Below are positions 23,783 through 62,246 of a stretch of 64,000 bases of DNA, one piece after another (the stretch's first letter is position 1; each line of letters starts with the position of its first letter). Both the position numbers and the translations under genes were made by a program. Below the pieces are notes generated by a model. That model was not told where the DNA came from and did no database searches. It saw only the letters and a list, made by a program, of their open reading frames with translations. The DNA comes from Spiractinospora alimapuensis. Its GTDB lineage: Bacteria > Actinomycetota > Actinomycetes > Streptosporangiales > Streptosporangiaceae. The stretch covers positions 4,860,010-4,924,009 of the forward strand of contig NZ_CP072467.1 in the NCBI RefSeq assembly GCF_018437505.1, in the 5' to 3' direction.

Positions 23783-24381
23783 TGGTCCGTGCCCTCTTCC
23801 GGTGACTGCGGCTTGGTCTTTCCGTATTGGTGACTGCGGCGCTTGTAGTCTCGCGCCCAGGTGAGGTGGACGCGATGCTCCTCAGTGCTGCCTGATTTCG
23901 CGGTATGCAGCGCGACGAGATCCTCGGCCAGTGAGCGAACACTGATCGATATGCCCTTGGAGGAGAGCTGTTTCATCACCGAGGGCAGACGAGAAGCCAC
24001 CTGGTCGTAATTGGAGGCGGTTAGCTGGCGGACCCGCGCTTCGGCCGCAGGATGGTCCCCTAACCGAGCAAGGGCACTCCCCAGGGTGAGGCGCCACTCG
24101 CCGCCCTGGGGTTCCGCCGGGTTGAGCGCGAAGAGTCCACACGTCAGCAGCCACGGACGGTCCCGCTCCGCGTCTGACTCAAACTTGACGCCAGCGTCGA
24201 TGAGAACGTCGTACACGTCGGGTATGTAGTGATGATCTGTGAGGCTGCGGCGCATCCGCGCGAGCCATCCCCGCGCGGGCCCTGCGACGGCCTGAACGTT
24301 GGAGTCGAGATCTCGGCCGACCCGGTAAAGAATGGAGGCGAGACGTCTGGCGGGACTATCGTCTGCGGGCTGGGAACTCAC
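23779..24381 (-). CDS. cse2: Cse2 (Cas11e), type I-E Cascade small subunit
   Basis: A 200-residue helical protein, present in two copies in Cascade, where it supports the displaced DNA strand. The family pattern is visible in ARGWLARMRRSLTDHHYIPDVYDVL, RPWLLTCGLFALNPAEPQGG and VRQLTASNYDQVASRLPSVMKQLSSKG. The GTG start overlaps the cas8e stop (GTGA) and the 3' end overlaps cas7e, so translation is coupled on both sides. Confidence 0.9.
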   Translation of the reverse strand: MSSQPADDSPARRLASILYRVGRDLDSNVQAVAGPARGWLARMRRSLTDHHYIPDVYDVLIDAGVKFESDAERDRPWLLTCGLFALNPAEPQGGEWRLTLGSALARLGDHPAAEARVRQLTASNYDQVASRLPSVMKQLSSKGISISVRSLAEDLVALHTAKSGSTEEHRVHLTWARDYKRRSHQYGKTKPQSPEEGTDQ

Positions 24382-25994: not shown

Positions 25995-26136
25995 GCAGTC
26001 TCCAGTCCAACCGCGACGAGATGAACCGTCACGATAGCGACGAGCACCGCAAGATCACCACCAAAACAGAAAAGTCGCTTTGCGGAGTGATGCCTTTACG
26101 CTCTGTGTTTTGCGTGTCTTGGATTGATCCAGCGCG
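25995..26136 (-). promoter_or_regulatory. Cascade operon upstream region
   Basis: This 142-bp gap between cas3 and cas8e is clearly less GC-rich than the genes around it, with A/T runs near 26060-26120. It is the only sizeable gap in the cas block and probably holds the Cascade promoter. No convincing -35/-10 pair could be picked. Confidence 0.4.
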
Positions 26137-28593
26137 TCATTCAGTTCCCTCCTGGCGGGAATTCCTCCCGTCAGGTTTCCGGGTGCGATTCACCGGGCCT
26201 GCGTGTTCGGTGAGCCGGCTGAGGTGTTGGTCCTGGGCCAGCAATGGGATCGTCGCGATGGTGCTGAGATAGTCCTCATGATCGGTGCGGTGCATGTAGG
26301 TGAGCAGGTCTCTTTCCCACTGCTTCCTGTTGCTGGCGGCGAGGGTCCACAACTCACTGTCGCCGTAGACCATCCGCAGCAGGGCCGGAGCTTCCTCGGG
26401 GAGGTTCAGGCGGGACCGGTCGCGGAGCGCCACACGGGTGAGGCGGAGCAACAAGGCTGGATAGACGTTCGCGATCCCATCCGGGAATCCTCGCTCGTCG
26501 TCGTGAGGGTCGGTGCCGCGCTTGCTGACGCGGTCCTTGTCCAGGAGTAGGAGCGTCTGCTGCCTCGTGGCCCCGGGCCGATACGGACGTGCGTGGCGGT
26601 GCAGCCGACCGATGCGCTGGATCAAGAGATCGATCATTGTCGGATCGGAGGCGAGGATGTCCGCATCCAGGTCAACCCCGCTTTCGAGCAGGCTGGTTCC
26701 TATGGCGACCGCGTGGCGGGTGGTCGGTGAGTTCTTTCCGAGAAGTTCGCTGATCCGGGCTTCGCTCTCCGCTCGGTCCTCCCGGTCGGAGTGCACGGAC
26801 ACAATCTCCGGGGGCGACGCGAAGACTTCGTCCGCGACACGTCGGAAGACCTCATGGGCGCGATCCACGCGCCTCTTCGTGTTGAGAAGCACGAGGGCGC
26901 ACCCGTCGTTGGAGATGTGCGCGAAGATCTCCCGCGCGAGCTTCTCGAAATCGTCTGAGTGGTGCACGAGTTCGACATCGTGTTGCGGAGCCTCGAGGGA
27001 CTCCAAGGGCCACGCCGTCGCGTCCTCGTCCGCGCTCGCCCACGTGATCTGCCACCCTGACTCGACGTTGGTGGTGGTTTCGACGGGGCCTTCCTCCAAT
27101 CGAGCCCCCGCCTGCCAATGCGTGATCAGCGCGTCGCGTCGTGCTTTGCTCAAGGACGCGGACATGACCACCACCGGGGTGCCGATGCTTCCGCACCACC
27201 ACATCAGCTTGTCCATGTGGCTCGCCACGTAGGTATCGCACGCGTGCGCCTCGTCGATGACCAGAACCTTGTTGCTCATGGCCGCGATGCGCAGGTGCAC
27301 CCACTTGGCGTTGATCACGGTCATCTGCGCTCGGTCGTGAGTGCCGACCACGAGGGGGGAGAGGATCGCGTCGTCCGGCTTGGACCGGCGCTGAGCATTC
27401 CGCTCTTGGTTGGGGTCTCGCGCCACGTCCTCCGCGGTGTCCTGGGGGTTCAGTTCGATGCCGGAGTCCTTGGCCAGACGGGGCATATCCTCCATCGCCC
27501 CGCTGAACGCCGGGAGACCTCGCAGGTCGAACTCTGCGTCAGCGAGAACCGCGTTGAGGTCGTGAAGCTGTGTCCGGCTCAGGGCCCGTGTGGGGAGAGC
27601 CAGCATGAATCCCGTAAGTCCGAGGGAGTCCACGAGCATCGCCGACGCCAGGAGGCCGGCGCGGCTCTTGCCCTCGCCAGTGGGGGCCTCGATCACCATG
27701 ATTCCTGGCTGGGTGTTGTCGTCGAGGACTTCCTCGACCAGTGTGTGCAGCCGACGGGGCGGCTCGCCGTTGAACAGGCCTCGATACCGGGGAGGGGTCC
27801 TGTGTTCCCAGGGGTGCCAGTTCAGCCGGCGTAGCGTGTCCCGAGCCTTGTGACGGACTTCGTCCCGATAGGCCGCCGTTCCTTTCTCCATGTGGGCGTG
27901 GCGCGGAATCCTGTTGGTGTAGTGGTCGGAGGCCAACCGGTCGCACATCACCGTCAGACCGGCGATGCCGATGGCGCCTCGCAGCCCGATGTGCACATGC
28001 GACCAGTCCTGGTCGAAGTCGAGCTCCCAGAGCGCCGCGAGCTCTCGAACGAAGCGTTGCCTGGCCGAGCACCACTCCTTCTTCCCGAGCCGCTTGGGTG
28101 CCATCTGGCTGATGCCATCCCAGTTCGGGAAGTATCCGTGGTGACCGGCGAGGGCGCCGGTGAGGAATCGTCGTGTCGGCCGTGGCGCGTTCTTCCGCTT
28201 CAGTTCCCAGTCCAGGTGCGAAGCCGTCAGGAGCGAGTGGGGTGCGAACGCGGCGACCGCGCGTCCCTCGAACGCACTGATGGCCTTCTGCGCGTTCTCG
28301 TCGAAGTACTCCGCGGTTACGTCGGTTCGGACGGACTGGAAGTAGGGCGAGAACTTGCCCAGGTCGTGTAGCCCGCACCAGAACGCGACCCACCGCTGCC
28401 ACTTCCCCCCGAGAGGGGTGAAAGCTTCTTCCAGCTCCTCTCGCAGGCGGGGGCCGAGCATCAGATCGACCAGTTCCTCCGCGAACGCCGCTGCGTCGAT
28501 CGCATGGCAGATCAGTAGGTGGACTTTCGGGGTCTTCGCTTTACCCGCCTTCCCCCACGGGGCGCAGATGTCGATGGGGGTGGTGTCGGCCAT
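26137..28593 (-). CDS. cas3: Cas3, HD nuclease-helicase
   Basis: An 818-residue Cas3 with an N-terminal HD nuclease (about residues 15-260; HLLICHAIDAAAF, then CGLHDLGKFSPYFQ carrying the His-Asp pair, and later LAGHHGYFPNWDG). A superfamily 2 helicase follows. Walker A is IEAPTGEGKSRAGLLASAM, motif II is VLVIDEAHACDTYV (DEAH), motif III is VVMSASLSKARR, and motif VI lies near LIQRIGRLHRH. Cas3 is recruited by Cascade and degrades target DNA. The ATG at 28593 follows a GGAGGG site. All catalytic motifs look intact, so interference should be functional. Confidence 0.95.
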   Translation of the reverse strand: MADTTPIDICAPWGKAGKAKTPKVHLLICHAIDAAAFAEELVDLMLGPRLREELEEAFTPLGGKWQRWVAFWCGLHDLGKFSPYFQSVRTDVTAEYFDENAQKAISAFEGRAVAAFAPHSLLTASHLDWELKRKNAPRPTRRFLTGALAGHHGYFPNWDGISQMAPKRLGKKEWCSARQRFVRELAALWELDFDQDWSHVHIGLRGAIGIAGLTVMCDRLASDHYTNRIPRHAHMEKGTAAYRDEVRHKARDTLRRLNWHPWEHRTPPRYRGLFNGEPPRRLHTLVEEVLDDNTQPGIMVIEAPTGEGKSRAGLLASAMLVDSLGLTGFMLALPTRALSRTQLHDLNAVLADAEFDLRGLPAFSGAMEDMPRLAKDSGIELNPQDTAEDVARDPNQERNAQRRSKPDDAILSPLVVGTHDRAQMTVINAKWVHLRIAAMSNKVLVIDEAHACDTYVASHMDKLMWWCGSIGTPVVVMSASLSKARRDALITHWQAGARLEEGPVETTTNVESGWQITWASADEDATAWPLESLEAPQHDVELVHHSDDFEKLAREIFAHISNDGCALVLLNTKRRVDRAHEVFRRVADEVFASPPEIVSVHSDREDRAESEARISELLGKNSPTTRHAVAIGTSLLESGVDLDADILASDPTMIDLLIQRIGRLHRHARPYRPGATRQQTLLLLDKDRVSKRGTDPHDDERGFPDGIANVYPALLLRLTRVALRDRSRLNLPEEAPALLRMVYGDSELWTLAASNRKQWERDLLTYMHRTDHEDYLSTIATIPLLAQDQHLSRLTEHAGPVNRTRKPDGRNSRQEGTE

Positions 28594-28787
28594 GGTCCCT
28601 CCAGGGGTGGAGACGGCAGCGGCACAGGCAACGGTGGCAAGTCGAAACACCCGCATCGCCTGTGTTGTGGGGAATGTAACTCATGTCACGGACGAATCAC
28701 CGGAAAGATGGGATGTCTTCGAAGATCGCGGATGTTGGGCCAAGGGAATCAAGCCCCCTTGCGTTGTCTCTCAGAGCGGAGTCCTTC

Positions 28788-32087: not shown

Positions 32088-34656
32088 CTATCCGCGCAGG
32101 ATCAGGAACGTAACGAGGCAGGTGATAAACGCCCCGAGGATGAGAGCCCAGTCTCCGTAGTCCTTGTCCCGCGTCACGAGACCGCCCACCACGCCGATTC
32201 CCATCCCCACCACATTGACCAGGAAGTAGCCCGTTGAGAGGACCTGACGGAATCCCTCTCCGGTGAACAGACCCGGGAAGTCGGGGGAAGGGAGCGAGGA
32301 AACGTGCCCACTCGCCCATCCCCAGAGTCCTAGCGCCGCCCACCCGATCGGGATCTGCAGGACTGGCACGAGGCCAAGCAGCATGACGAAGACCATCGCA
32401 AAGAAGAACAACCCCACCTTTCCTTCGTCGTCATCATCAGCGGGTTCCTTGCTGTCCCTTCGTGATGTTTCCGAGGAGGCTGCGCTGAATGCCGAGGGGG
32501 GAGGCGGCGGAGGGCCTGGGGGCGGCGGATCCCGTCGTGCGTCGGTCAGCTCCCGCAACCGATCCGCCGCGTCCGGGTCACCGCCGTCACGCGCCCGGGT
32601 CAGCCAGTGACGGGCATCGGCGTCACGCCCCTGGTCGGCCAGCAGGATGCCCAGGTTGTACATACCGACGGTGTCGCCGTTGTCGGCCGCTTTCCGGTAG
32701 TGCTCCTCGGCTTCTCTGAGCCGTCCCTGATTGTGCAGTGCGTTCCCGAGGGTGTTGTGCGCGTTCGGCTCGACCTCCACCGCCTTGCGCAGCCAGTGCT
32801 CCGCCTCGCTGTCGCGTCCCGCCTTGACGAGGAACATGCCGTACCCAAAGCCCGCCCCGACGTTGCCCGCGTCGATCGCCTGCCGATAGGTGCGTTCGGC
32901 TTCCGGCAGTCGGCCCAGTTCGACGAGCGTGTTGGCGAGGTTGTTGCGGCCGGCCAAATGCCCGTGGTCAGCCGCGTGGCGGAACCAGTGTTCGGCCTCG
33001 CTGTAGCGTTCGGCGTCGAACAGGAGATTGCCATAGCTGATGGCGTCCGCGGAGCTCCCGCCCTCGATCGCCCTGCGGTACCACTCCTCGGCCGTCCCCG
33101 GGTCGCCCTGGTGATCGACCAACAGGTCGGCGTAGTGGCCCATCGCGGCCGGGTCCCCGGCTTCGGCGAGTTCACGATAGAGGTCCATCGCCTGGCTGAC
33201 ACCGCCGTTTCGAAGCGTCAGATTGGCCAGGTTCCGTTTGCCGTCCACATCGCCCGCGTTGGCAGACCGGCGATACCAGACCTCCGCCTCCGCCTCGTTC
33301 CCCCGCGCGCTCAACAGAACGCCGAGGTTCACCATCGCGTCGACGTCGCCCCCCGCCGTGGCCTTCCGGTACCACTCCTCGGCTGTGCCCACGTTGTCGT
33401 TGTGCTCGGCCAGGACGCCGAGTTGGAATCCGGCGTTGGATTCCCCGAGGTCGAACGCTGTGCGCAGCCACGTCTCCGCCGCGCCTACTTGGTCGAGGTC
33501 CGCGTGGAGGGACCCGAGCCGCAACGCCGCCTGCGGGTGGCCCGTGCGTGCGGCCTTCTCGTACTCGAGCATCGCGGCGGCCGAGTTGTCCGCTCGTTCA
33601 AGGTCCTGCCCGCGCGCGAACGCCAGCTCAGCGTCCGAGTCGTCGGCCGCGTCGTGGTTGTCTGGGGGGCCACTTCCGGCGGAGCGAGGCCGTTCTCCCC
33701 GTGGGGGAGTGGGGGGAGGAGTGTTGGTGGCGGCGAACCCGGGGTACTGTCGCGTCGGCGGGTCGGGGGGCGTGACCTCGGTGGCATCGTCGCTCACGAG
33801 CTTCGTCTGTGCCGTGACCATGGCGGTGAGCGGTTCCGGCAGCCACGCCTTCTGGGACGGGATCTGGCTGGCCATCCGCAGGAGCTCCGGAAGTCCCGGC
33901 CGCCGCACCGGATCCTTCGCCAAGCAGCGGTCGAGAAGCTCGCGTAACCCGTCGGGGACGTCAGCGAGGTCTGGGTCCCCGTCACACACCCGGCGCATCT
34001 GTGTCAGGGGGTGACCGGTCCCGAACACCGGCCGGCCTTGGGCGGCGAACCCGAGGAGGGCGCCGAGCGCGAACACGTCGCTCGCCGGAGTGAGTTCCCG
34101 GTGTTCCACTTGCTCCGGCGACCAGAAGCCCGGCGTCCCGATCGCCATTCCGGTTTTGGTGAGCTTGGTTCCGTCGGCGAGGTGGGCGATCCCGAAGTCA
34201 AGGACGCGCGGTCCGTCCTTGGCGAGAAGCACGTTTCCCGGTTTCAGGTCCCGATGGACCAATCCGCTGCGGTGGATGTCGCGCAGCGCTTCACTCAGCC
34301 CCGCCCCCAGTGTTCGTACAGTGCCCTCGGGGAGCGGCCCGTGCTCCGAAACCGCCTGGTCCAACGTGGGTCCGGGAATGTAGACCGTGGCCAACCACGG
34401 GGTCGCGGCCCGGATCCGCATCCACCACCGGAGCCGTGAACGCCCCACTGACCTGCCGCACCGCGTCGATCTCCCGTGAGAACCGATCCCGGAACTCCGA
34501 GTCGGCGGCCAGCTCCCGGTGAATCACCTTCACCGCCACCAGCCGGTTGCTCAGCGACTGGCCCAGGTACACCAACCCCATCCCACCAGCCCCGAGCCGC
34601 CCCAACAGCCGGTAGTCGCCGATCTCCGGTGGGTCACTGTCATCCAACGGCTGCAT
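32088..34656 (-). pseudogene. Ser/Thr protein kinase-Sel1 fusion with membrane tail, apparent frameshift
   Basis: Two frames together encode one kinase. The first (from ATG 34656) has the N-lobe: GRLGAGGMGLVYLG glycine loop, VAVKVI lysine and REIDAVRQVSGAFTAPVVDAD. The second resumes at AATPWLATVYIPGPTL and carries HRDLKPGN, DFG and GTPGFWSPEQ. The switch falls near 34405-34420, where the coding strand reads GATCCGGGCCGCG; one extra G would restore the frame. After the kinase come about ten Sel1 repeats (roughly 300 residues) and four hydrophobic helices at the C-terminus. Either the gene is broken or the sequence has an error in this GC run. The kinase would be membrane-anchored with an interaction scaffold. 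Confidence 0.75.
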
Positions 34657-34760: not shown

Positions 34761-34910
34761 CGCCCATCCCCGCGTGCGCGGGGCTTTCACAACGACGGAC
34801 GTGACAGTGCGCGAATCAGACGGTCCATCCCCGTGTGCGCGGGGTTTTCCGAACCCAAAGACCGGTCGCCAGATCACCAACCGGTCCATCCCCGTGTGCG
34901 CGGGGTTTTC
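34761..34910 (-). CRISPR. CRISPR array 1 (type I-E, 3 repeats, 2 spacers)
   Basis: Three 28-nt repeats start at 34761, 34822 and 34883, a 61-bp period with 33-nt spacers. The plus-strand repeat begins GGTCCATCCCCGTGTGCGCG and ends GGGTTTTC. The left-most copy is degenerate (CGCCCATCC... and CTTTC). Compared with the E. coli type I-E repeat, the array reads on the minus strand, so the degenerate copy is the trailer end and the leader lies to the right. The hairpin has only 5 clean base pairs because the arms are shifted relative to array 2. It is flanked by two Ser/Thr kinase genes. Confidence 0.9.
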
Positions 34911-35075
34911 AGGGCGTGACCTGGGGTTTTTCGGTGTCGTTATCGTTTCGCGATGGTTGGGGTGCGATCCAGCGTCTCATGATGCCCCCACAGAAGGGAA
35001 AGTGGACGATTGTCGTCCACTTTTTGTGTCGATGTGCGTGCTCGACCGTGGAATCGCGGACAAGGTACGTCCTCG
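34911..35075 (-). promoter_or_regulatory. Leader of CRISPR array 1
   Basis: This stretch is homologous to the right flank of array 2. Identical blocks such as CGGTGTCGTTATCGTT (34932), AGCGTCTCATGA (34971) and GGAATCGCGGACA (35050) occur at the same distance from the last repeat within 1 nt. Position on the repeat-1 side and conservation mark it as the leader, which would contain the array promoter and integration signals. Confidence 0.8.
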
Positions 35076-35084
35076 AATCACCAC

Positions 35085-37376
35085 TCACTCCGTTCGGGTG
35101 GAGTGTCTGGGGTCGGCGATGGGGCCGGCGACCTGGGGGTCTTCGGGGATGAAGACGATGGACCACGTGGACATGTCAATGTCGTAGCGGTCGTAGGGGT
35201 CGGCGGCGGCTTCGTTGACTGTGGTGGGGTTGCAGTATTGGGGCACCGTGGCGTCGCGCCCGCCGGCTTCCAGCATGGGGGCGACCTGTTCGCAGGACAT
35301 GTCGTCGAAGAAGGCGCGCTGGATGCCGGTTCCCGACCATCCCTCCACGAACTCGCCACCGCCAGAGACGAACTCCTCGGCGACCGTCATCGCGCGGTCG
35401 CAGTCGACGTCCCAGGCGTCGGCGTGGACGGTGAACGCGGATCCGTCCGGAGTGTTCACGGTGCCGCAGCCTGGTGTGTAGACGAGCAGGGTGTGCATGG
35501 CCGACTGGACGTTGTATTCCACCTCCGGCTCCGCCACCTCCACTGGTGCGTCGAGTTCGGTGAAGGTGACCGTGGCCTCCCAACCGCTCGTGGTGTAGGC
35601 CATCTGGACCGGGTTTCCCGCGTCGTCGATCCAGACCTCTCCGGTGGCGTCGAGCTCTCCCACGGTCTCACCGAGGCCGCGCGGTGCGAGGAAGCTGCCG
35701 GAGTAGCGGGTGGTCGTCGTGTCGCCGAGGGTCTCGTCGCCCTCGTCGGTGAGATCGTCGGCCGTCGCCAGTCGGCGCAGTGGTTCGACGATGGAGTCAA
35801 CGGAGTAGGAGTCCTCCGTGAAGCGGTCCGTGGTGGCGAACCAACTGGCCGGGTCCCGCATGGATGTGCCGTAGGCGTGGATCTCCCCGTCGACGTTGGC
35901 CACGATTTCGTTGCGCTGGTCTGGGACGTCCACGGCTTCGCCGTCGATCTCGCTGAGTTCCGCCATGAAGATCGGGACGGGATCCGTGGCGTACCGAACG
36001 TCGAAGCCTGTGGCGGTCGCCTGGAGCACCTCCTCCACCGCTGTTCCGCTGGCCACGGAGTACTCGTCGGCGCGTTCGGCGGTGAACTGGCGGGTGAACT
36101 CGGCGGCGAAGCCCTCCCCGTCGGCGAGAACCTGGGCCGCCTGCTCGACGATCTCCTGGCGTTGGCTCGCGGCCTGGGCGTCGACGGCGTAGTATCCGCC
36201 GGTCCCCACCGCGGCCACGGCCAAGGTCCCCCCGGCCGCGATCGCGACGGTCTTGGTCGTGAACAGGCCCGCGGCCGTTCCGGTGGTGGCTGTGGTCATG
36301 CTGGCCGCCGATACAGTGCCGCCGGCCCCGGCCGAGGCCGTCCCCGCGACGGCGCTCCCGCCGGCCGCGGTGGACGCGGACGTCGCCACCGCCGCGGCCC
36401 CCACGAGTCCCACGCCACCCGCCAAGGCGACCCACGCGCGCGGGTCGTGGCCGGCGGCGTCGAACCCCCGCCAGACGTTGCCGAGGAGCGCGGCCAGACG
36501 GATCCGCGCCTCGGATGGATGGGCCGCCGCCGTCTCGGGGGTGCCCGAGGCGAGTGCGAGGCTCTCGCGGAAGCACTCCAGCGCCAGCGGGCGGTCCGCG
36601 GCCACGGGGGAGAGCGCCCGTTCCAGCAGTTCAGCGAGGTCGGGCGGGACGCCGAGGAGGTCCGGGGTGCCGTTGCGGGTGCGGTCAAGCACCGCGCCGG
36701 TGTCCCCCACCCCGAAGGGAGGTCGCCCCGTCGCCGCGAAGGCCACGAGCCCGCCCCACGCGAACACGTCCGCCGCGGTGGTGTCGTCCCCGCCGGCGAT
36801 CCGCTCCGGGGACATGTAGCCGGGCGTGCCGTACACGCCCTCCTCCGGGCTCCGGTCCTGTGCTCGGCGGGCGATTCCGAAGTCCAGGACCCGGGGGCCG
36901 TCGGGGGAGAGGACCACGTTTCCGGGTTTGATGTCCCGGTGCAGCACGCTGGCGATGTGCAGCGTGTGCAGCGCCTCGGCGGTACCGGCCGCGAAGGCGA
37001 GCAACGCGTTGCCGGTGAGTGGGCCGTGCCGGCGAACGTGCCCGGTGAGGGTGAGCCCGGGCACGAACTCCGTCGCCAGCCACGGCTGTTCGGCCTCGGC
37101 GTCCGCTCCCAGGAACCGGGGGGCACACACGACGCTCAGGTCCCGCATCACCGCGACCTCGCGGGCGAAGGTGTCCCTGTAGGCCGGGAGCCCGGCGAGT
37201 TCCGGCTTGATGACCTTCACCGCCACACAGGTGTCGTCGACATCCAGCGCCGCGTAGACCGTCCCCATCCCGCCGGCACCGAGCCGGCCGATCACCCGGT
37301 AGGGGCCGAGCTGGCGCGGGTCATCGGCGTGGGGCGCTGTCAGTTCCGGGGGTGCGGAGGGATGGGGAGAGGACAT
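35085..37376 (-). CDS. Membrane Ser/Thr protein kinase with extracytoplasmic domain
   Basis: A 763-residue PknB-like kinase. The kinase domain spans about residues 25-280: GRLGAGGMGTVYAA, VAVKVIKPEL (catalytic Lys), LHRDIKPGNVVL, DFGIARR and GTPGYMSPERIAG. A juxtamembrane Ala/Gly/Thr-rich part leads to a single membrane helix around residue 390 (TVAIAAGGTLAVAAVGTGGYYAV). The remaining 370 residues would be outside the cell and include VDVPDQRNEIVANVDGEIHAYG and a Cys-containing end (TPGCGTVNTP; DVDCDRAM; MSCEQVAP). The outside part matches no sensor domain recognised here. Its stop lies 10 bp from the array 1 leader. Confidence 0.88.
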   Translation of the reverse strand: MSSPHPSAPPELTAPHADDPRQLGPYRVIGRLGAGGMGTVYAALDVDDTCVAVKVIKPELAGLPAYRDTFAREVAVMRDLSVVCAPRFLGADAEAEQPWLATEFVPGLTLTGHVRRHGPLTGNALLAFAAGTAEALHTLHIASVLHRDIKPGNVVLSPDGPRVLDFGIARRAQDRSPEEGVYGTPGYMSPERIAGGDDTTAADVFAWGGLVAFAATGRPPFGVGDTGAVLDRTRNGTPDLLGVPPDLAELLERALSPVAADRPLALECFRESLALASGTPETAAAHPSEARIRLAALLGNVWRGFDAAGHDPRAWVALAGGVGLVGAAAVATSASTAAGGSAVAGTASAGAGGTVSAASMTTATTGTAAGLFTTKTVAIAAGGTLAVAAVGTGGYYAVDAQAASQRQEIVEQAAQVLADGEGFAAEFTRQFTAERADEYSVASGTAVEEVLQATATGFDVRYATDPVPIFMAELSEIDGEAVDVPDQRNEIVANVDGEIHAYGTSMRDPASWFATTDRFTEDSYSVDSIVEPLRRLATADDLTDEGDETLGDTTTTRYSGSFLAPRGLGETVGELDATGEVWIDDAGNPVQMAYTTSGWEATVTFTELDAPVEVAEPEVEYNVQSAMHTLLVYTPGCGTVNTPDGSAFTVHADAWDVDCDRAMTVAEEFVSGGGEFVEGWSGTGIQRAFFDDMSCEQVAPMLEAGGRDATVPQYCNPTTVNEAAADPYDRYDIDMSTWSIVFIPEDPQVAGPIADPRHSTRTE

Positions 37377-37514
37377 GCACAGGAGTGTCGCATCCCACGG
37401 GGTGTTCTCGTAGCTCAGGGTCGACCGGCGATCACATATCCGGCAAAAGGTGCGGGATTCCCCTCGTCGAGCACCGACGATGGTCGGAGAGTCAACGGCC
37501 CGTGCACCAACGAC

Positions 37515-38270
37515 TCACGTGAGAGTGAGGTAGTGGTACCGGCCCACCTCGGTGAAGCCCAACCGCTCGTAGACGCGTTGCGCGACCTCGTTGTCGGGGA
37601 CCACCTGGAGCCACAGGTGGCGCACCCCCCGCCGCTGAGCGGCCCGTGCCAGGGCGCCGATCACCGCCCCGGCGTCCCCGTTCCCACGCGCCTCGGGACG
37701 GACTCCGAGGCAGGCGAGGCCACCCCAGTCCTCCACCAAGGCCAGCCGCCCCACCGCGCGCACCGATCCACCTCCGGCCGTTCCGGGAATCTGGCCGAAC
37801 AGGGCCGGGCCACGGGTGAGAACCTGGCGAGCGGTGTCCCAGTACCGCTCACGGGGTTCCGGCCGGTCGACGTCCCACCAGGCGTCCAACCACGCCTCAC
37901 TCGGGCTGTCCCGCACCTCCACCGGGGAACGGGCGGGGCGCAGCCGCTCCAGTACGGTCGACAACTCGGCCGCGAGATTGAGCGTTGGGGTCCGCGCCTC
38001 GTAGCCACGCTTCTCCAGCCGCGCCTCCAGGTCCGAGGGGCGGACCGCGTCGGAGATGTGGAACGTCGGTGCGAGCCCTCGGGCCGCGTACAGCTCCTGC
38101 ACCTGATCGATCGCCGCGTCGACGTCGGCCGGCTCGTGCAGAGCGAGAACGGAGTTCGCGCGCTTGGTGAACCCGTCGGCCGTGCGCACCAACCACCCGT
38201 CAACGTCAATATTGGTCAACCCGGGCCACGCCCGGTCGCTCAGGAGGTCCAACCGTTCCGCATCGATCAT
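37515..38270 (-). CDS. GNAT family N-acetyltransferase
   Basis: A 251-residue protein whose C-terminal part is a GNAT fold: ARGNGDAGAVIGALARAAQRRGVRHLWLQVVPDNEVAQRVYERLGFTEVGRYHYLTL, with the Q/RxxGxG/A-type acetyl-CoA loop (RPEARGNGDAG) and the usual NxxAxxxYxxxGF helix. The N-terminal half (LDLLSDRAWPGLTNIDVDGWLVRTADGFTKRANSVL) is a degenerate second GNAT-like half, as in two-domain acetyltransferases. The acceptor is unknown. ATG 38270 is the first in-frame start before this conserved opening; the frame is open further upstream without support. Confidence 0.8.
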   Translation of the reverse strand: MIDAERLDLLSDRAWPGLTNIDVDGWLVRTADGFTKRANSVLALHEPADVDAAIDQVQELYAARGLAPTFHISDAVRPSDLEARLEKRGYEARTPTLNLAAELSTVLERLRPARSPVEVRDSPSEAWLDAWWDVDRPEPRERYWDTARQVLTRGPALFGQIPGTAGGGSVRAVGRLALVEDWGGLACLGVRPEARGNGDAGAVIGALARAAQRRGVRHLWLQVVPDNEVAQRVYERLGFTEVGRYHYLTLT

Positions 38271-39117
38271 GCCCCGACGGTACGGGAACCCAGCTCCCCT
38301 CGGCCCGGAGGGGCGTGGCCGATGGGTCGACGACCGCGGATAGGAGCCCCGGCGAGGACCGCGACCTCCCGCCGGTCTATCCCCGGCGTCTCCCCCGGAC
38401 GCTGCCTCGCCGTTCCGCCGGCGCGTTGAGGGTCGAAGGACGCGCCCTCGCCGCGCGATCTCTCGCATCCCCACTGGGACAGGACCGACCGGCGGGCGTG
38501 CCTTGTCCACGGGCCCAAGGGGGTGCCGACGCCCCGCACCCCTTCCAAGCCCCGTCCCGCTGGCGGTCCCTCCGTGCTGGGACGGGACGGTGTTCGTGCT
38601 GAGTGGGTATGGCGTCGCCGCCTGGCACGAGGTGCGGGCCACACCCTGTCGGGCCGGGCGTCGCCAAGCGTTGAGCGCGAACCCCTACCGCTGACACGGG
38701 GACCAGCGCGGCCTGGACTCCACGACTGCATCGACCACTCCCAGTCCGTTCCTTGCGGTCTGGATGGACGCTGTCCTGGGGCAACGCCGACAACCCCGAC
38801 CTCTGGGCGTGGTTGGGGCATGGGCGCTCGGCGCCTGTGGTTGTTCGGTCGGCCGATCGAACACTCGTGGCCCCACGAAGCCCGGAGTGAGGGCGCGGGC
38901 CTGTCGCCCCGTCCCGTCCCTCACCCCCGCTCGTCGCGGTCGCGTGGTTGTCGTGCCGAAACCGGAGCTTCCAGCGGGTCGCGCCAACCCCCGGGCAAGA
39001 GTCGGCTCCGGGGGCGCGGCCCACCCGTGCGAACGAGCGGCTATCCCACTCCACGAAAACGGACGAGGCCGCGTCCGCCCCCTCCGCGGGCGCCGAGGTC
39101 ATCCTCGGGCCCGCACC
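38271..39117. other. Gene-poor stretch of about 850 bp
   Basis: No gene could be supported between the GNAT start and the molybdoenzyme stop. Frames longer than 180 codons exist on both strands but are Arg/Pro/Gly-rich, lack ribosome-binding sites and contain no recognisable domain. The stretch may be a decayed gene or a long untranslated region. Confidence 0.45.
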
Positions 39118-41481
39118 TCACCCCTGTTCGTCGCGGGGACGGGTGGCCGTCGCGCTCGGGGTGATCTCGACGATCAGGTGTTTGGTCAGGGGCTGCTCGC
39201 TCTGTGGGCTGTAGTCGCCGAGGGCGCACAGCGCGTTGAGTTCCGGCATGTACCCCGTCGCGCAGCCCTGCGGGATGTCGTAGGCGATCGCCCGGTATCC
39301 GTACACGGTGCGGCGGCTGCCGTCCTTGGCGATGCTGGTGACGTCGATGAGGTCGAAGGAGACGAGGCCACGGTCGGCCATGTCCTTCTGGTGCATGTAG
39401 ATCGCGGTGCGCAGGTTGCTGAGCCCGCGGTAGCGGTCGGTGTCGGAGTAGATGGTGGTGTTCCATTGGTCGTGGGACCGCACGGTGCTGAGGGTGAGGC
39501 GCCCTTCGCCTGGGTCGGTGTCGGGTAGTGGTGCGAGGGAGAACTCGGCCCGTCCGGACGGAGTCTCGAACACGCGCTCCCTGGCCGGCTGGGCGATTCG
39601 GAAGCCCAAGGGGTGCCGCACACGTCGGTTGAAGTCCTCGAACCCGCGCAGCACCGAGCCCATGGTGTCGCGGACGGCGTCGTAGTTCTCGCCGTAGTCC
39701 GTCCAGGGTTGTGAACTGTTGGGCAGGGTGGCCATCGCCAACCCGCTGATGATGGCCTCCTCCGACCGGAGGTGTTTGGAGATCGGGTCCCGCATGCCGT
39801 AGGACAGGTGCACCATGCTCATCGAGTCCTCCACGGTGGTGCCCTGGGTGCCCGCCGCGGTGATGTCGCGTTCGCTGCGGGCTATGCAGGGGAGGATGAG
39901 GGCCTTCTTGCCGTGGACGAGGTGGCTGCGGTTGAGTTTGGTGCTCACCTGCACTGTCAGGTCGCAGTTGCGCAGTGCCTCGAAGGTGCGTGGCGTGTCC
40001 GGTCCGGCCAACACGAAGTTGCCGCCCATCCCCACGAAGACCTTCACGTCGCCGCGCAGCATGGCCTCGATCGACTGCACCGTGCCGAGTCCCCGCTCCC
40101 GTGGCGGCTCGAAACCACACACGTCGCGGAGCCGGTCCAGGAACTCCTCACCCGGGTGGTGGGTGACGCCGCAGGTACGGTTCCCCTGCACGTTGCTGTG
40201 CCCCCGGATCGGGCAGGGCCCCGCCCCCTCCCGGCCGATGTTGCCCCGCAGCAGCAGGAGGTTCACGATCTCCCGCACCGTGTCCACACCGTGCTCCTGT
40301 TGGGTGATTCCCAGGCACCACGCGACGATGGTGCGTCGCGACCGCATGTAGATGTCCGCCAGGTGCCGCATCTCCCCCTGGGACACTCCCGACACGCGCT
40401 CCAGGTCCCGCCACTCCGTCTCGGCGCACAGCCGACGGTAGGCCTCGAAGTCGTGGGTGTGGTGGGCGATGAACTCGTGGTCGACGGCCCGCGGATTGGC
40501 CTCCGTCGCCTCCAGGACGGCCTTGGCGACACCTCGCAACACTGCCAGGTCCCCGCCCACCAGTGGCTGCACGTTCAGGTCACCGGTGGAGGTGGCGTGG
40601 AACGTCCCCATGGACACGAACTCGTGCGGCACGATCGTCTTCTCCGAGGCGAGCTCCACCAGCGGGTTGATATGCACGATGGAGGCGCCGCGGCGGTGGG
40701 CGTTGGCGAGACTCGTCAGCATGCGCGGCGCGTTGGACGCCGCGTTCACACCGACGATGAACAGGGCCTCGGCCTCGTCCCAGTCCTCGAGCATCACCGT
40801 GCCCTTGTTGGTGCCCAACGAGTCGGTCAGCGCTCGACCGCTGGCCTCGTGGCACATGTTGGAGCAGTCCGGCATGTTGTTGGTACCGAACTCCCGCACC
40901 CACAGGTTGTACAGGAACGAGCCCTCGTTGCTGAGCCGGCCCGAGGTGTAGAACGTGGCCTGGTCCGGCGAGTCCAGCGCCCGCAGCTCCGCGCCGACCA
41001 TCTCGAAGGCGCTCTCCCACGAGATCGGCACGTAGTGGTCGGTCTCGGGGTCGTAGGAGAGGGGCCCCGCGATCCGGCCGGCCGCCTCCAGCGCGTGGTC
41101 ACTCCACTCCGACAGTTCCCGCACGCTGTGCCGGGCGAAGAACTCCTTGCCGACCGTCTTACGGGTCATCTCCCAGGTGACATGCTTGATCCCGTTCTCA
41201 CAGATGTCCAGGTGCAGGCCATGACGGTCGTCGGGCCACGCGCAGCCGGGGCAGTCGAAGCCGCCGTTCTCCTGATTCATCGTTACGGTGGCCCGCACCC
41301 CGTTCACGGGTTCGCCGCTCTTGGCGATCACCCGCGCCACGGACTTCGCCGCCCCCCACCCCGCGCTGGGGTGGTTGTAGGGCCGCCAGTCGGGTGTCCC
41401 GCCGCCAGGCCCCCGCCCCGGCGCGGGGGAGTGCGGTGTCCCCACACTGAAGTTGTCCTGAGGTGCGTCGCCGTCAGTCAT
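39118..41481 (-). CDS. FdhF/YdeP family molybdopterin oxidoreductase
   Basis: A 787-residue molybdenum enzyme of the formate dehydrogenase alpha-like family (YdeP type). Typical segments are QENGGFDCPGCAWPDD near the N-terminus, RKTVGKEFFARHSVRELSEWSD, TFYTSGRLSNEGSFLYNLWVREFGTNNMPDCSNMCHEASG and AEALFIVGVNAASNAPRMLT. The C-terminal MoCo-binding domain includes RLTLSTVRSHDQWNTTIYSDTDRYRG. Such proteins carry bis-MGD; the physiological substrate of YdeP-like members is not settled. No FdhD, iron-sulfur or cytochrome partner gene is adjacent. ATG 41481 has GGGAGC upstream. Confidence 0.88.
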   Translation of the reverse strand: MTDGDAPQDNFSVGTPHSPAPGRGPGGGTPDWRPYNHPSAGWGAAKSVARVIAKSGEPVNGVRATVTMNQENGGFDCPGCAWPDDRHGLHLDICENGIKHVTWEMTRKTVGKEFFARHSVRELSEWSDHALEAAGRIAGPLSYDPETDHYVPISWESAFEMVGAELRALDSPDQATFYTSGRLSNEGSFLYNLWVREFGTNNMPDCSNMCHEASGRALTDSLGTNKGTVMLEDWDEAEALFIVGVNAASNAPRMLTSLANAHRRGASIVHINPLVELASEKTIVPHEFVSMGTFHATSTGDLNVQPLVGGDLAVLRGVAKAVLEATEANPRAVDHEFIAHHTHDFEAYRRLCAETEWRDLERVSGVSQGEMRHLADIYMRSRRTIVAWCLGITQQEHGVDTVREIVNLLLLRGNIGREGAGPCPIRGHSNVQGNRTCGVTHHPGEEFLDRLRDVCGFEPPRERGLGTVQSIEAMLRGDVKVFVGMGGNFVLAGPDTPRTFEALRNCDLTVQVSTKLNRSHLVHGKKALILPCIARSERDITAAGTQGTTVEDSMSMVHLSYGMRDPISKHLRSEEAIISGLAMATLPNSSQPWTDYGENYDAVRDTMGSVLRGFEDFNRRVRHPLGFRIAQPARERVFETPSGRAEFSLAPLPDTDPGEGRLTLSTVRSHDQWNTTIYSDTDRYRGLSNLRTAIYMHQKDMADRGLVSFDLIDVTSIAKDGSRRTVYGYRAIAYDIPQGCATGYMPELNALCALGDYSPQSEQPLTKHLIVEITPSATATRPRDEQG

Positions 41482-41562
41482 TCGGTGCTCCCGGTCGTGG
41501 GTTGCGGACATTGCCGCCGCCAAGAGGTCACTGCTTCGGCGGCGCGGCAGCGTGGATGTCGC

Positions 41563-42333
41563 TCAGGGTTGGGGACCTTCGGCCAGCATCGCCACCTCAC
41601 CGGCGCTCCAGCCGCCGTCCACGGCCAGCTCGGCTCCGGTGACGTAGGAGGCGCCGTCCGACAGCAGGAAGACGTTGGCGGCCGCGACCTCCTCCGGCTT
41701 GCCGACCCGTCCCTCCGGCGCCAGCGGGTACTCGTGGTCCGCGGCGATCGCGCCCGCCTCGTGTGTCATCGGTGTGGCGATCATGCCGGGATGTACCGAG
41801 TTCACGCGGATCCGGTACAGGGCGAACTCCTCGGCCGCGATCTTGGTGAGGCCGCGTACGCCCCACTTGGACGCCCCGTAGCCCGACGTCAGGGGAACCC
41901 CGATCAGGCCGGCCGCCGAGGACAGGTTGACGATCGACCCACCCCCGACGGTGCCCATCGGGCCGAGCATCGCCTTGAGCCCGAGAAACACGCCCACGAG
42001 GTTGATCCGGACCACGCGTTCGAAGTCCTCCAGGGGTGTGTCCTGGATGAGGGTCCCCGAGCTCACTCCGGCGTTGTTCACCAACCCGTCGATGCGCCCC
42101 AATGTGGTCTCGGCATGATGGACCACCGCCTGCCAGTCGTCCTCCCGCGTCACGTCGTGGACGTGGAACTCCACGGCGCCGCCCAGACGCTCGGCGGTGG
42201 CCTGCCCCTCGTCCACCAGCACGTCAGTGATGAGGACCCGCGCCCCGGCCTCGACACACTGCCGCGCCGTGGCCTCCCCGATCCCGCGCGCGCCACCGGT
42301 GACGACGATGACCTTCCCGCCGAGATCCCGCAT
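41563..42333 (-). CDS. Short-chain dehydrogenase/reductase
   Basis: A 256-residue classical SDR. The NAD motif TGGARGIGEATARQ is at residues 12-25, DVLVDEGQATAE suggests NAD(H) preference through Asp at the end of strand 2, and NNAGVSSGTL follows. The catalytic Ser is in IVNLSSAAGLIG and the YxxxK pair in SGYGASKWGVRGLTKI. SVHPGMIATPMT and VTGAELAVDGGWSAG complete the family pattern. It resembles bacterial 3-alpha/20-beta-hydroxysteroid dehydrogenases, though the substrate is only a guess. The ATG at 42333 follows AGGGGG; an ATG eight codons upstream sits directly on its own GGAG and is less likely. Confidence 0.88.
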   Translation of the reverse strand: MRDLGGKVIVVTGGARGIGEATARQCVEAGARVLITDVLVDEGQATAERLGGAVEFHVHDVTREDDWQAVVHHAETTLGRIDGLVNNAGVSSGTLIQDTPLEDFERVVRINLVGVFLGLKAMLGPMGTVGGGSIVNLSSAAGLIGVPLTSGYGASKWGVRGLTKIAAEEFALYRIRVNSVHPGMIATPMTHEAGAIAADHEYPLAPEGRVGKPEEVAAANVFLLSDGASYVTGAELAVDGGWSAGEVAMLAEGPQP

Positions 42334-42526
42334 GCTGCCCCCTGGAGGTCGACTCATCTCCGGAACCTCGCCGGGGTCGACAGGGCGTAGTACCAAGCCG
42401 CGGTTCGGACTCGGGAAAATCTCCGCACAGGGCACAACCGAGGCCGAGTGCCGGGGTTCACGCACACCCCGGCCACCCGCCGACCACGAACCCGTCAATG
42501 GGCGGTCAGCGGGAGCGAAACGCTGG

Positions 42527-44527
42527 TTACCAGGGGCGAATCCGGCTGAAGAGCCGCTCCCATCGGGCCGCGTAGCTGTAGCGGAGCTGGATCGCGTTCG
42601 CCAGGCTCGTGGCGCGGTCCACGACCGGCTTGGCCATGTGCTTTCGCCCGGCCTTCCGGTAGACGCGGCCCATGCTGTAGAGGGTCTCGACCAGTACCCG
42701 CGGATCCTGCGCGCGTTCGGCGATGCTGACGGCGTGCTCGACTCCCCGCACCGCCTCCTCGTTTCGGTGCAGGGACACCGCCACCACAGCCCACGTGGAC
42801 AGGGCCAGGGCCTGCAGGCCGACGTGTTGGAGTTCCTGGGCGAGCTCGGTCGCCTGGCGGGCGAGCTGCTCACCGTTACTCGTCTGCCCGCTCTGGGCTG
42901 CGGCGATCGCGCGCACGAACAGGCTCTCGGCGATCACACGGCGGGAGCCGAGCTGGTTCGCGATGATCAGGGCCTCTTCGGCGAGGTTCGACGCCGTCGC
43001 GGAGCGCATGATGATCAGCAGGGCGATGGCGCGTTCCCGCAGTGCCTCACACCGCAACAGTGGCGCGGCGCTACGGGAAGCCCACTCCAGGCCGTCCTTG
43101 AGGTAGCGGTCGGCCGTGATCGGGTCCGCTCCGTGCAGGATGGACAGCCGCCCCCGTCCCACACTGCATCGTGCGATGACCAGGCTCACGTCGCCCTGTC
43201 GCGCGATGGACTCCGCGTGCTGGAAAGCGACATCGGAGTCGGAGTATCGACCGCGTCCGAGCAGCGTGGTGGCCCGGCAAAGCTGGAGCCGGGCGGCGTA
43301 GGCGGTGGGCGGCGGCCCCTGTTCCGCCATGGCCCTGTCCGCGGCCATGAGCTTGGCGTCGACCTCCGCGAAGCGCTCCAGCTCCGAGAGGGCCTCGGCC
43401 TGCCCGAGCAGGGCCTCCGCCCGAACCGCGTGGTCGGTCGGACCTGCCGCCTTCTCGGCCGCGATCCACCGGTCCAGCGCGGCGACCGGATCGTACAACG
43501 CGGCCAACAGGTCGGTCGCCGGCAACACCGGGCCTCGCGCCACGGGTGGGGGAGTATCGCCGGGAACAGCGGACGCGAAGCCGCCCGGCGGCACGGAGTG
43601 CCTCGCTCCTGGCTGCGGTGCGTGCGACGCGGCCGGGGGAGGAGAGGGCATGTCCGCCTGCGGAGGCGGGGAGGCCGCGGGCGCGGTGGGCTGGGCAGCG
43701 GCCTTCGCGGCCACGGCGGCGGTGCCCGTCGCGGGGGGCGGCGCGCCTCCCAGCAGGAAGTCCAGGACGTCCCGCGAACTCGGCCGGTCGTCGGGCCGTT
43801 TCTCCAGGCACGACCGGACGATCGGCAGGAGCAGCTCGGGAACCCCGTCCAGCACCGGTTCCCCGGTGGCGACGCGGGCGATCCGCGCCATGTTGCTCTC
43901 GCCCGGAAACGCCTGGCTCCCGGTCGCGGCGAACACCATGACGACGCCCCACGCGAACACGTCGGCGGCGGAGGTCAGCCGGTCCCCCTCCAGTTGCTCC
44001 GGCGCCATGTACCCGGCGGTCCCGACCATCGTCGCCGAGGTGACGGCGGTTCCCTCGACCGCTCGCGCGACCCCGAAGTCAATGACGCGCGGCCCCTCCG
44101 GCGCGAGCATGATGTTGTCCGGCTTCAGGTCACGGTGCACCACCCCAGCCGCGTGGATCGCGCACAGCGCGGTGGCGGTCTGCACGGCGAGCCGCTGCAG
44201 GTCACTCCCCGACCGGGGCCCGTTCTCCGCGACCGCCTGCTGCAAGGTGGGCCCACTCACGAACTCCGTGGCGATCCACGGCCGCTCCGCCCCCGGGTCG
44301 GCATCCAGGATCTCCGCCACACAGAACCCCTGCACCTGCCGCGCCGCGGTCAACTCCCGCGCGAACAGGTCCCGCACCTTGTCGTCGTCGGCCAGATGCG
44401 GATGCAACAGCTTGACGGCCGCCTGCCGCCCATTCTCGTCGCGCCCCAGGTAGACGCTACCGAACCCGCCGCTGCCGAGCTTGTCCAACAACTCGAACCC
44501 GCCGACGCTGTCCGGCTTGTCCGCCAT
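42527..44527 (-). CDS. Ser/Thr protein kinase with C-terminal TPR-like helical domain
   Basis: A 666-residue protein. The kinase domain (about 10-260) has DKLGSGGFGSVYLG, AAVKLLHPHL, VHRDLKPDNIML, DFGVARA and GTAGYMAPEQLEG, so it should be active. A Pro/Ala-rich linker (about 270-350) follows. The last 300 residues are alpha-helical with TPR-like spacing (DHAVRAEALLGQAEALSELERFAEVDAKLMAAD; LARQATELAQELQHVGLQALALSTWAVVAVSLHRNEEAVRGVEHAV). No membrane helix is seen, so it is probably cytoplasmic. GGGGAGGA precedes ATG 44527. CRISPR array 2 begins 240 bp upstream of its start. Confidence 0.88.
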   Translation of the reverse strand: MADKPDSVGGFELLDKLGSGGFGSVYLGRDENGRQAAVKLLHPHLADDDKVRDLFARELTAARQVQGFCVAEILDADPGAERPWIATEFVSGPTLQQAVAENGPRSGSDLQRLAVQTATALCAIHAAGVVHRDLKPDNIMLAPEGPRVIDFGVARAVEGTAVTSATMVGTAGYMAPEQLEGDRLTSAADVFAWGVVMVFAATGSQAFPGESNMARIARVATGEPVLDGVPELLLPIVRSCLEKRPDDRPSSRDVLDFLLGGAPPPATGTAAVAAKAAAQPTAPAASPPPQADMPSPPPAASHAPQPGARHSVPPGGFASAVPGDTPPPVARGPVLPATDLLAALYDPVAALDRWIAAEKAAGPTDHAVRAEALLGQAEALSELERFAEVDAKLMAADRAMAEQGPPPTAYAARLQLCRATTLLGRGRYSDSDVAFQHAESIARQGDVSLVIARCSVGRGRLSILHGADPITADRYLKDGLEWASRSAAPLLRCEALRERAIALLIIMRSATASNLAEEALIIANQLGSRRVIAESLFVRAIAAAQSGQTSNGEQLARQATELAQELQHVGLQALALSTWAVVAVSLHRNEEAVRGVEHAVSIAERAQDPRVLVETLYSMGRVYRKAGRKHMAKPVVDRATSLANAIQLRYSYAARWERLFSRIRPW

Positions 44528-44767
44528 AACCGTCCTCCCCGAAGGCATGCCGCGAATGACACCCCAACCCTAGATCCTCCAGCGACGACCACCGGCCCCC
44601 AAGCCGCCGAGAGAACGTCCTCCTAGCCGCCGGGAGCGGGATGCCCCTAGTAACGGCGTGTCTACGGTCTTCGGCATCCGCCAAGTACGCCTCAGCGGCG
44701 GCAACAGCCGGCCGAATCCCCACGCAGCAGAGTGCCCCAAGCCGGACACACAGCGAGGCCTCGAGGC

Positions 44768-46385
44768 GGCCCATCCCCGCGTCTGCGGGGCTCACCGAAC
44801 TCCGCTACGTGGTGGCGGAAGTGTGATCCGGTCCATCCCCGCGGGTGCGGGGCTCACACGTTCGCGGGGATCGACCGCGCCACATCCCGCAGGTCCATCC
44901 CCGCGTGTGCGGGGCTCACGGCGGGCGGCGTCCAAGGCGACCACCCACCTGCAGGTCCATCCCCGCGTGTGCGGGGCTCACGGCACCAACACACACAAGC
45001 CCCGGCAGAACCTGGTCCATGCCCGCGTGTGCGGGGCTCACGAGTTGACGCTGCTCGACACCAACCAGGTCCCCCGGTCCATCCCCGCGTGTGCGGGGCT
45101 CACGGTGAACACGATCCCGGATGGGTCGTGCGAACCCGGTCCATCCCCGCGTGTGCGGGGCTCACCATCACGTGACACGGTGTCGGTGCCCGTCGCCCGG
45201 TCCATCCCCGCGTGTGCGGGGCTCACTGAATATCAACCGCCTCGTCGACCGTGCGTGACGGTCCATCCCCGCGTGTGCGGGGCTCACAATTCGATCTCGT
45301 CGTATACAGGCATGGGGTCCGGTCCATCCCCGCGTGTGCGGGGCTCACCCCGACACGACCCGCATCCAGGAGAGCATCGTCGGTCCATCCCCGCGTGTGC
45401 GGGGCTCACCCGGCGCGAGGGGGAAGGAGTCAGGCGCGCGTCCGGTCCATCCCCGCGTGTGCGGGGCTCACCCGCCTGAACCTCGAACGAGACGACGTGG
45501 CGACGGTCCATCCCCGCGTGTGCGGGGCTCACCGCGATCATCTCCTCGATGTAGTCGATCGTCAGCGGTCCATCCCCGCGTGTGCGGGGCTCACCAGCGT
45601 CGGCGCCCCCGTGGTGTTAGTGGTGACGGTCCATCCCCGCGTGTGCGGGGCTCACCCGCCCCCACACAGCAGGGCCCCACGCCGGTCCGGTCCATCCCCG
45701 CGTGTGCGGGGCTCACCTGTCTGTCCCGGCCCCGGGAGACGTCCATTCGGTCCATCCCCGCGTGTGCGGGGCTCACCGTTCCCGGAGGACACACCACTGG
45801 CCCGGACCGGTCCATCCCCGCGTGTGCGGGGCTCACGGCGGAGAACCCCAGGATCTCCGCCACCCACGGCGGTCCATCCCCGCGTGTGCGGGGCTCACAC
45901 ATCAACCGCACACAGCACTGTCAACTCCACCGGTCCATCCCCGCGTGTGCGGGGCTCACACGATCTCCGGGGAGATGCCCCGGGCCGAGACCGGTCCATC
46001 CCGCGTGTGCGGGGCTCACTGTACACCCGCGATTCGATGTGGGGAGGCTTCCGGTCCATCCCCGCGTGTGCGGGGCTCACCTTAGAGCCCCCGTGTCCGA
46101 TTTCTCCTGGTTCGGTCCATCCCCGCGTGTGCGGGGCTCACCGGCAGAGACTGCGGGAGTTGGGGACCCGGTTCGGTCCATCCCCGCGTGTGCGGGGCTC
46201 ACACCACGTTCATGGGACTCCTCCCGGAGTCACTGGTCCATCCCCGCGTGTGCGGGGCTCACACCGCCACCACACGCCCAACCAGGACACGAACCGGTCC
46301 ATCCCCGCGTGTGCGGGGCTCACTGCGCGGGGTAGGGCATGGGATAGCGCGTGGGCCGGTCCATCCCCGCGTGTGCGGGGCTCAC
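44768..46385 (-). CRISPR. CRISPR array 2 (type I-E, 27 repeats, 26 spacers)
   Basis: The consensus 28-nt repeat on the plus strand starts GGTCCATCCCCGCGTGTGCG and ends GGGCTCAC; periods are 60-62 bp with spacers of 32-34 nt. On the minus strand CCCCGC and GCGGGG pair around a 4-nt loop, the Cas6e substrate form. The first two copies (44768 and 44830) and the fifth (45014) have substitutions, and the copy at 45993 lacks one C. Degenerate copies at the left and the conserved flank at the right show that the array is read on the minus strand from a leader at the right. No spacer matched another part of this window on inspection. Confidence 0.97.
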
Positions 46386-46560
46386 CAGCGCGCGACCTGG
46401 GGTTCCTCGGTGTCGTTATCGTTCCGCGACGTTCGAGGTGGGATTCAGCGTCTCATGACACCCAAAATGAGGGGGAAGTGGACCATTGTTGTCCGCTTTG
46501 CTTGCCGGTTTGCTTGCTCGATTGGGGAATCGCGGACAGGGCGTGTCCGCGATGGCCGTG
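46386..46560 (-). promoter_or_regulatory. Leader of CRISPR array 2
   Basis: Collinear with the array 1 leader: CGGTGTCGTTATCGTT at 46408, AGCGTCTCATGA at 46447 and GGAATCGCGGACA at 46526 stand 23, 62 and 141 nt from the last repeat, against 22, 61 and 140 nt in array 1. It should contain the pre-crRNA promoter and the adaptation signals. Confidence 0.8.
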
Positions 46561-46590: not shown

Positions 46591-46680
46591 CGCTCGTCTC
46601 CACATGCGCGGGGCTTATCGGACGCGACCGGGGCTTCTTTGGCGCCGGTGCAGCTTCGCGATGTCGGGGTCAGGGTTCTT
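46591..46680 (-). repeat. Decayed CRISPR repeat plus partial leader
   Basis: Beyond the array 2 leader, a repeat-like stretch at about 46591-46618 (ending GCGCGGGGCTTATC) is followed by CGCGACCGGGGCTTCTTTGG and a region that aligns to the start of the array 2 leader. By hand about 37 of 55 positions match, and most differences are transitions. It looks like the remnant of a further repeat-leader unit. Alignment was by eye only. Confidence 0.5.
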
Positions 46681-46718
46681 GTTTGATCGTGGCCTCGAAG
46701 ACAGGGGAGAGAGCCGCC

Positions 46719-61977: not shown

Positions 61978-62149
61978 CGATCGGAGGGGCCGCACTGAGG
62001 CTGACGCATCGAGGACACACCCTGTCCTCGAACCCTCCCAAGAGAGGCAGCAGACCAGCCCCCACGAGAACCCAGCCGCGCCCCACCCAAAAGCACAAGG
62101 GGGAGGCCCCCATGGCTCCGGCCAGGGCTTTTGTGGCACCGTGTTCCAC

Positions 62150-62246
62150 GCGCGACGTCCGCCTAAGCGAAATGCCGGTTATGTCCAAGTTTCGAGAAGT
62201 GATGAATTCCGGTGCTTGTCGCTGGTAAATTCGCTGGCCATGTAGT
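62150..62246 (+). promoter_or_regulatory. Likely leader of CRISPR array 3
   Basis: The stretch just left of array 3 is AT-richer than its surroundings (AAATGCCGGTTATG, GATGAATTCCGG, GGTAAATTCGC). It sits on the side of the perfect repeats, opposite the degenerate terminal copy. It shares no obvious similarity with the leaders of arrays 1 and 2. Confidence 0.55.

Follow-up and report, generated by a model that had tools for sequence, protein, structure and literature searches.

To our knowledge, little is understood, beyond a few proteobacteria and cyanobacteria, about the regulation of CRISPR arrays as distinct from that of cas genes. In Mycobacterium smegmatis, the WYL activator SiwR senses single-stranded DNA, responds to genotoxic stress and binds an imperfect 19-bp palindrome in a promoter of DinB-family genes, and the authors of that work state that no WYL factor has been described as regulating phage defence in Actinobacteria (PMC10693628). 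In Synechocystis, the WYL protein Sll7009 regulates a I-D CRISPR locus negatively (PMC10212523). BrxR and CapW are WYL regulators of BREX and CBASS (PMC9122601, PMC9122588), BrxR repressing BREX and binding inverted repeats upstream of its own gene (PMC9122601).

Here we describe CRISPR leaders of Spiractinospora alimapuensis that carry putative binding sites of a WYL regulator. The window, that is, the whole stretch of DNA analysed (64,000 nucleotides), corresponds to G000:C1:4860010-4924009 of a 5.86-Mb single-contig genome. As with SiwR, the candidate regulator is an actinobacterial HTH-WYL protein, the putative site in the target promoter is an imperfect palindrome of about 19 bp, and genes for DinB/mycothiol-S-transferase (MST) and glyoxalase-type proteins are found among neighbours or targets; here, however, sites of this kind lie in CRISPR leaders. 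Sll7009 is likewise an HTH-WYL regulator tied to CRISPR RNA, on whose accumulation it acts (the tie being a candidate one here), but it is part of its own cas locus, of subtype I-D, and its operator is not defined in the text of PMC10212523, whereas our case involves eight dispersed arrays of subtype I-E, a defined pair of dyads and a regulator unlinked to cas genes. BrxR and CapW share with it the link of WYL proteins to defence genes, yet the BrxR box (11-bp arms, 5-bp gap) is situated within defence islands and not in CRISPR leaders. We consider it probable that the leader shared by these arrays joins a core for integration and/or transcription to a distal half that serves as an operator pair for a SiwR-like HTH-WYL regulator. 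The relevant features of the window are:

21147-28656, minus strand: type I-E interference operon (cas3, cas8e, cse2, cas7, cas5, cas6), without cas1/cas2
34761-34910, minus strand: CRISPR array 1 (A1), 3 repeats and 2 spacers, read leftward, outermost repeat decayed
34911-35079, minus strand: leader family I, copy A1 (124.5 bits)
34918-34953, minus strand: A1 proximal core, GACCTGG...CGTTATCGTTTCGCGA, conserved across genera
35000-35022, no strand: A1 distal dyad IR1 (AAGTGGAC-N7-GTCCACTT)
35054-35076, no strand: A1 distal dyad IR2 (TCGCGGAC-N7-GTCCTCGA), of putative WYL-operator type, 54 bp from IR1
44768-46385, minus strand: CRISPR array 2 (A2), 27 repeats and 26 spacers, read leftward
46386-46556, minus strand: leader family I, copy A2 (121.7 bits)
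46394-46429, minus strand: A2 proximal core
46476-46498, no strand: A2 distal dyad IR1
46530-46552, no strand: A2 distal dyad IR2, sharing 22 of 23 bases with the site that precedes the WYL regulator gene at G000:C1:3325814
46597-46710 (about), minus strand: decayed repeat and partial leader I, a relic right of A2 (31.6 bits)
62009-62031, no strand: IR2-type dyad preceding array 3 by 216 bp, next to a short stretch resembling leader I
62245-62519, plus strand: array 3, read rightward, its repeat and its leader (family II) both distinct from those of A1 and A2

Three serine/threonine protein kinase genes (32088-34448, 35085-37376 and 42527-44548) directly adjoin arrays 1 and 2.

Pairwise alignment of the A1 flank (34911-35078) with the A2 flank (46386/7-46553) revealed about 165 bp of gap-free similarity at 76% identity, with a 1-nt offset at the junction as the sole departure from a gapless alignment. 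The local score of 147 lay far above the maximum of 29 reached in 2000 dinucleotide shuffles and the maximum of 30 for other parts of the window, and the likeness extended along the whole flank, ending just beyond the third of three shared blocks, at about +167. The initial annotation had called the two flanks collinear on the strength of these blocks, and its claim holds in full, including their order, their distances from the last repeat (22/61/140 and 23/62/141 nt) and the offset. Its leftward reading of both arrays agrees with the position of the leader on the right and with the state of the repeats, which are intact near the leader and decayed at the far end in several arrays.

The common ancestry proposed for the two arrays is upheld by leader homology, but they are not a pair, as six further copies of the leader lie elsewhere in the chromosome:

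5312274: leader I locus B
3695607: leader I locus C
5333816: leader I locus D
4697972: leader I locus E
322764, other strand: leader I locus F
1780316: leader I locus G, a relic

Leader family I thus adjoins eight I-E arrays at constant spacing, scattered over the 5.86-Mb chromosome. The arrays share repeats of ~29 nt, spacers of about 32-34 nt and a period of ~61, range from a few to 29 repeats, and are presumably transcribed from the leader into the array. An alignment of their leaders spans 173 columns, is free of internal gaps and shows 55-76% pairwise identity. A1 and A2 form the closest pair (76%), but since each is about as far from B (~72%), some 0.4 Mb away, local duplication across 10 kb is not specially indicated; nor does any spacer recur between any of the eight arrays, and there is thus no sign of recent duplication.

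Judged by its sequence, this element is a type I-E CRISPR leader that eight dispersed arrays have in common and that consists of two modules, a proximal core and distal dyads. Invariant positions are concentrated in the core (columns 1-45, 21/45) and in the dyads IR1 (columns 91-113, 10/23) and IR2 (columns 145-167, 12/23), with 3/45 between core and IR1 and 0/31 between IR1 and IR2. This distribution bears on the simplest alternative, namely that the blocks are remnants of a plain common leader whose distal half has no special function. Homology of the copies over their whole length would fit such a reading; identity, however, has fallen to 55-76% while conservation persists in just these modules, which makes it quite improbable. 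The full leader was found in no other genome of the taxonomic family by blastn and pattern search (up to 3 mismatches), nor in the species collection, and Rfam contained no match for it. A scan for sigma-70-type promoters of pre-crRNA returned no match in the leader, although actinobacterial promoters may escape such a scan.

The proximal core, by contrast with the full leader, recurs in other genera. It occupies the 45 bp next to the repeat, reads GACCTGG..TTCTTT....CGTTAYCGTTYCGCGA and corresponds to block 1. A profile search of 338 genomes of the family placed it beside I-E-type arrays with different repeats in G344, G276, G257 (twice) and G299, several weaker matches (E about 0.001-0.007) being ordinary coding DNA; a pattern scan recovered it in Actinomadura geliboluensis, A. 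hibisca, A. sp. NBRC 104412 and A. parmotrematis. Foreign copies always lie directly after the last repeat, and this position makes the core a likely integration and/or transcription core. The I-E leaders of A. geliboluensis, A. hibisca and A. parmotrematis share with ours the sequence GACCTG-G-YT-T-T-N5-YGTTA-..-TT-G-GA at equal distance from the first repeat; unlike ours, they have different repeats and lack distal dyads, and in at least some a cas3-like gene follows directly. Such a gene directly follows the leader at the core-bearing foreign loci L118, L172 and L175, and the Actinomadura cas3 beside the core is 40% identical to that of the second I-E operon of S. alimapuensis (described below) versus 27% to that of the window operon.

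These comparisons divide the initial proposal that the blocks are integration or promoter motifs, to be sought beside I-E arrays in related genomes. It stands for block 1, whose core is common to other genera. Block 2 (AGCGTCTCATGA) is unconserved, being retained only in A1, A2 and partly in a third array, and block 3 makes up the left half of IR2, the outer 23-bp dyad, which points to a transcription regulator rather than to the integrase. No such dyads were detected in the foreign leaders bearing the core, so that the link between leader and WYL regulator is known from one genome only.

The distal module lies 90-167 bp from the repeat and contains two (N)GGAC-N7-GTCC(N) dyads. From the left end of one dyad to that of the other the distance is exactly 54 bp in 8/8 leaders, which places IR1 and IR2 on about the same helical face. 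Core and geometry are alike in the two dyads and the outer bases differ; owing to this difference, IR1 may be a weaker site or one bound by another paralogue. Half-sites vary independently across leaders (for example GCGGAC...GTCCTC), a pattern more in keeping with a protein dimer that binds DNA than with a hairpin in RNA. An RNA-structure reading of the dyads was rejected, as the arms show no covariation.

A related possibility is that the dyads act as transcription terminators or insulators, halting read-through into the array. On the plus strand, IR1 of A1 can indeed form a hairpin of 11 bp with T residues after it; this T-run, however, belongs to the strand that leads away from the array, pairing is broken in IR1 of D, E and F and in IR2 of A1, F and G, and neither dyad was called by a terminator scan. 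We regard this explanation as very improbable.

A blast search of the own genome returned a 24-bp match at 3325771, just upstream of an HTH-WYL regulator gene (G000:C1:3325814-3326761) that is unlinked to cas genes. This site, TCGAGGACacgccctGTCCGCGA at -43, agrees in 22/23 bases with IR2 of A2, which in the pre-crRNA sense reads TCGCGGACacgccctGTCCGCGA. IR2 thus matches the regulator's apparent operator in sequence, IR1 in core and spacing only. The homology, spacing, dyads, identity to the regulator-gene site and distribution are all properties of the DNA itself.

Phylogenetic footprinting of this site covered 29 WYL homologues with usable upstream DNA, the own gene included. A dyad of N7 geometry occurs at -50..-10 in 17/29 of them, against 77/2798 control windows, and a matrix built from the leaders alone found a site with p<1e-4 per site in 19/29. 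A stringent pattern (WCGMGGAC-N7-GTCCKCGW, with the reversed pattern as control) occurs once per genome in the relatives G092 and G006, 20 bp upstream of the WYL orthologue (reversed control 0), and was absent from four other genomes examined. The dyad upstream of the WYL gene is therefore, to all appearance, the regulator's autoregulatory operator.

Within the own genome, the dyad is absent from the other WYL genes, the paralogue L137 having a different one with GGCC arms (GCGGCC-N7-GGCCGC). In 3/3 homologues in which the recognition helix reads RND instead of RRD, the operator arms are of GGAA type instead of GGAC, and this R/N difference is a possible specificity code for the WYL subfamily. 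The homologues L158, L160 and L170 carry helix N instead of R, with GGAA-type instead of GGAC/GGCC operators. The WYL domain of the own regulator can be aligned with those of PafBC, the R..FR stretch included, and its solved-structure matches comprise only PafBC-type proteins, CapW and BrxR.

The stringent pattern yielded 12 sites in the own genome (control 0), with 7/12 at CRISPR loci, 1/12 at the WYL gene and 3/12 before stress-type genes; the remaining site, 2487440, falls at a gene's end. The CRISPR-locus sites are those of leaders A1, A2, B and C, relic G, the site upstream of array 3, and 4990947, a leader I relic beside a family II array. The stress-type genes encode an MST/DinB protein, a glyoxalase-type protein and an ABC transporter, and a near-match precedes a gene for an AlkZ-like DNA glycosylase. 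The window itself holds three strong dyad sites, all adjoining arrays, and no dyad was found at cas operons.

The distal dyads might instead be docking sites of the integration complex, with Cas1-Cas2 or a bending factor contacting a folded leader. The I-E leaders of E. coli have an upstream anchoring site, which offers a parallel. Conserved inverted repeats contacted by Cas2 are present in I-F leaders (PMC12259127), and the fixed spacing from dyad to repeat in 8/8 arrays is consistent with such a role. Against docking, the IR2 dyad also stands free of arrays before the WYL gene and the three stress-type genes, occurs in two relatives at just one place in the genome, before the WYL gene, and is missing from foreign leaders with the same core; we consider docking unlikely.

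Taken together, the precedents of SiwR, Sll7009 and BrxR and the WYL-domain alignment make a WYL regulator tuning family I pre-crRNA the best reading. In this model, the 45-bp core by the first repeat would most likely be the site of Cas1-Cas2 and a DNA-bending factor and/or the pre-crRNA start, and a WYL dimer is predicted to bind the leader dyads, raising or lowering pre-crRNA transcription. The eight arrays, at least one family II array and the detoxification gene set would then answer one signal, for which related WYL proteins suggest single-stranded DNA from DNA damage as a candidate. What we infer from these patterns is protein binding, the sign of its effect, the signal, and what the core does.

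The pattern suggests that phage memory is switched together with DNA-damage and detoxification genes. Because the same putative operator appears in the leaders of eight or more dispersed I-E arrays and before detoxification genes, the expression of immune memory would, if this is true, be part of the DNA-damage regulon. In our judgement the case is evenly poised as to whether a chromosomal WYL regulator unlinked to cas loci controls CRISPR memory through array leaders, with array expression inside the DNA-damage regulon and the cas genes outside it. The result supplies a located regulator gene, a defined 23-bp leader site and a short list of genes that may be co-regulated, which make the idea testable with one protein and one deletion. 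A leader core common to several genera can now also be separated from a lineage-specific regulatory add-on.

The I-E cas genes of the genome include cas1e and cas2e. Cas1e and Cas2e are encoded in a second I-E operon, 10-20 kb to the left of the window and distantly related to the window operon (Cas7 35% identical). Leader family II, of about 70 bp, occurs at roughly 20 places in the own genome, so that, counting relics, nearly 30 I-E arrays fall under the two leader families there. At G000:C1:4990300-4991300 (L095), a family II array has a distal-half leader I relic at its other end, forming a hybrid locus, and a weaker IR2-type dyad at G000:C1:5018818-5018840 (L105) precedes a family II leader by ~80 bp, which recalls the arrangement at array 3. 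The region G000:C1:1386000-1405900 (L045) holds another CRISPR system, equipped with a Cas1 of its own and with repeats of 72-73-bp period (GTTGCGATCCTCAGCCGC...). No protospacers for array 2 were found in phages. Saccharomonospora phage PIS 136 (JX006077.1, 15679-15886; L176) carries a four-repeat I-E-like array (GGTTCATCCCCGCGTGTGCGGGGCGGAT, period about 61) whose repeats are similar to those of array 2.
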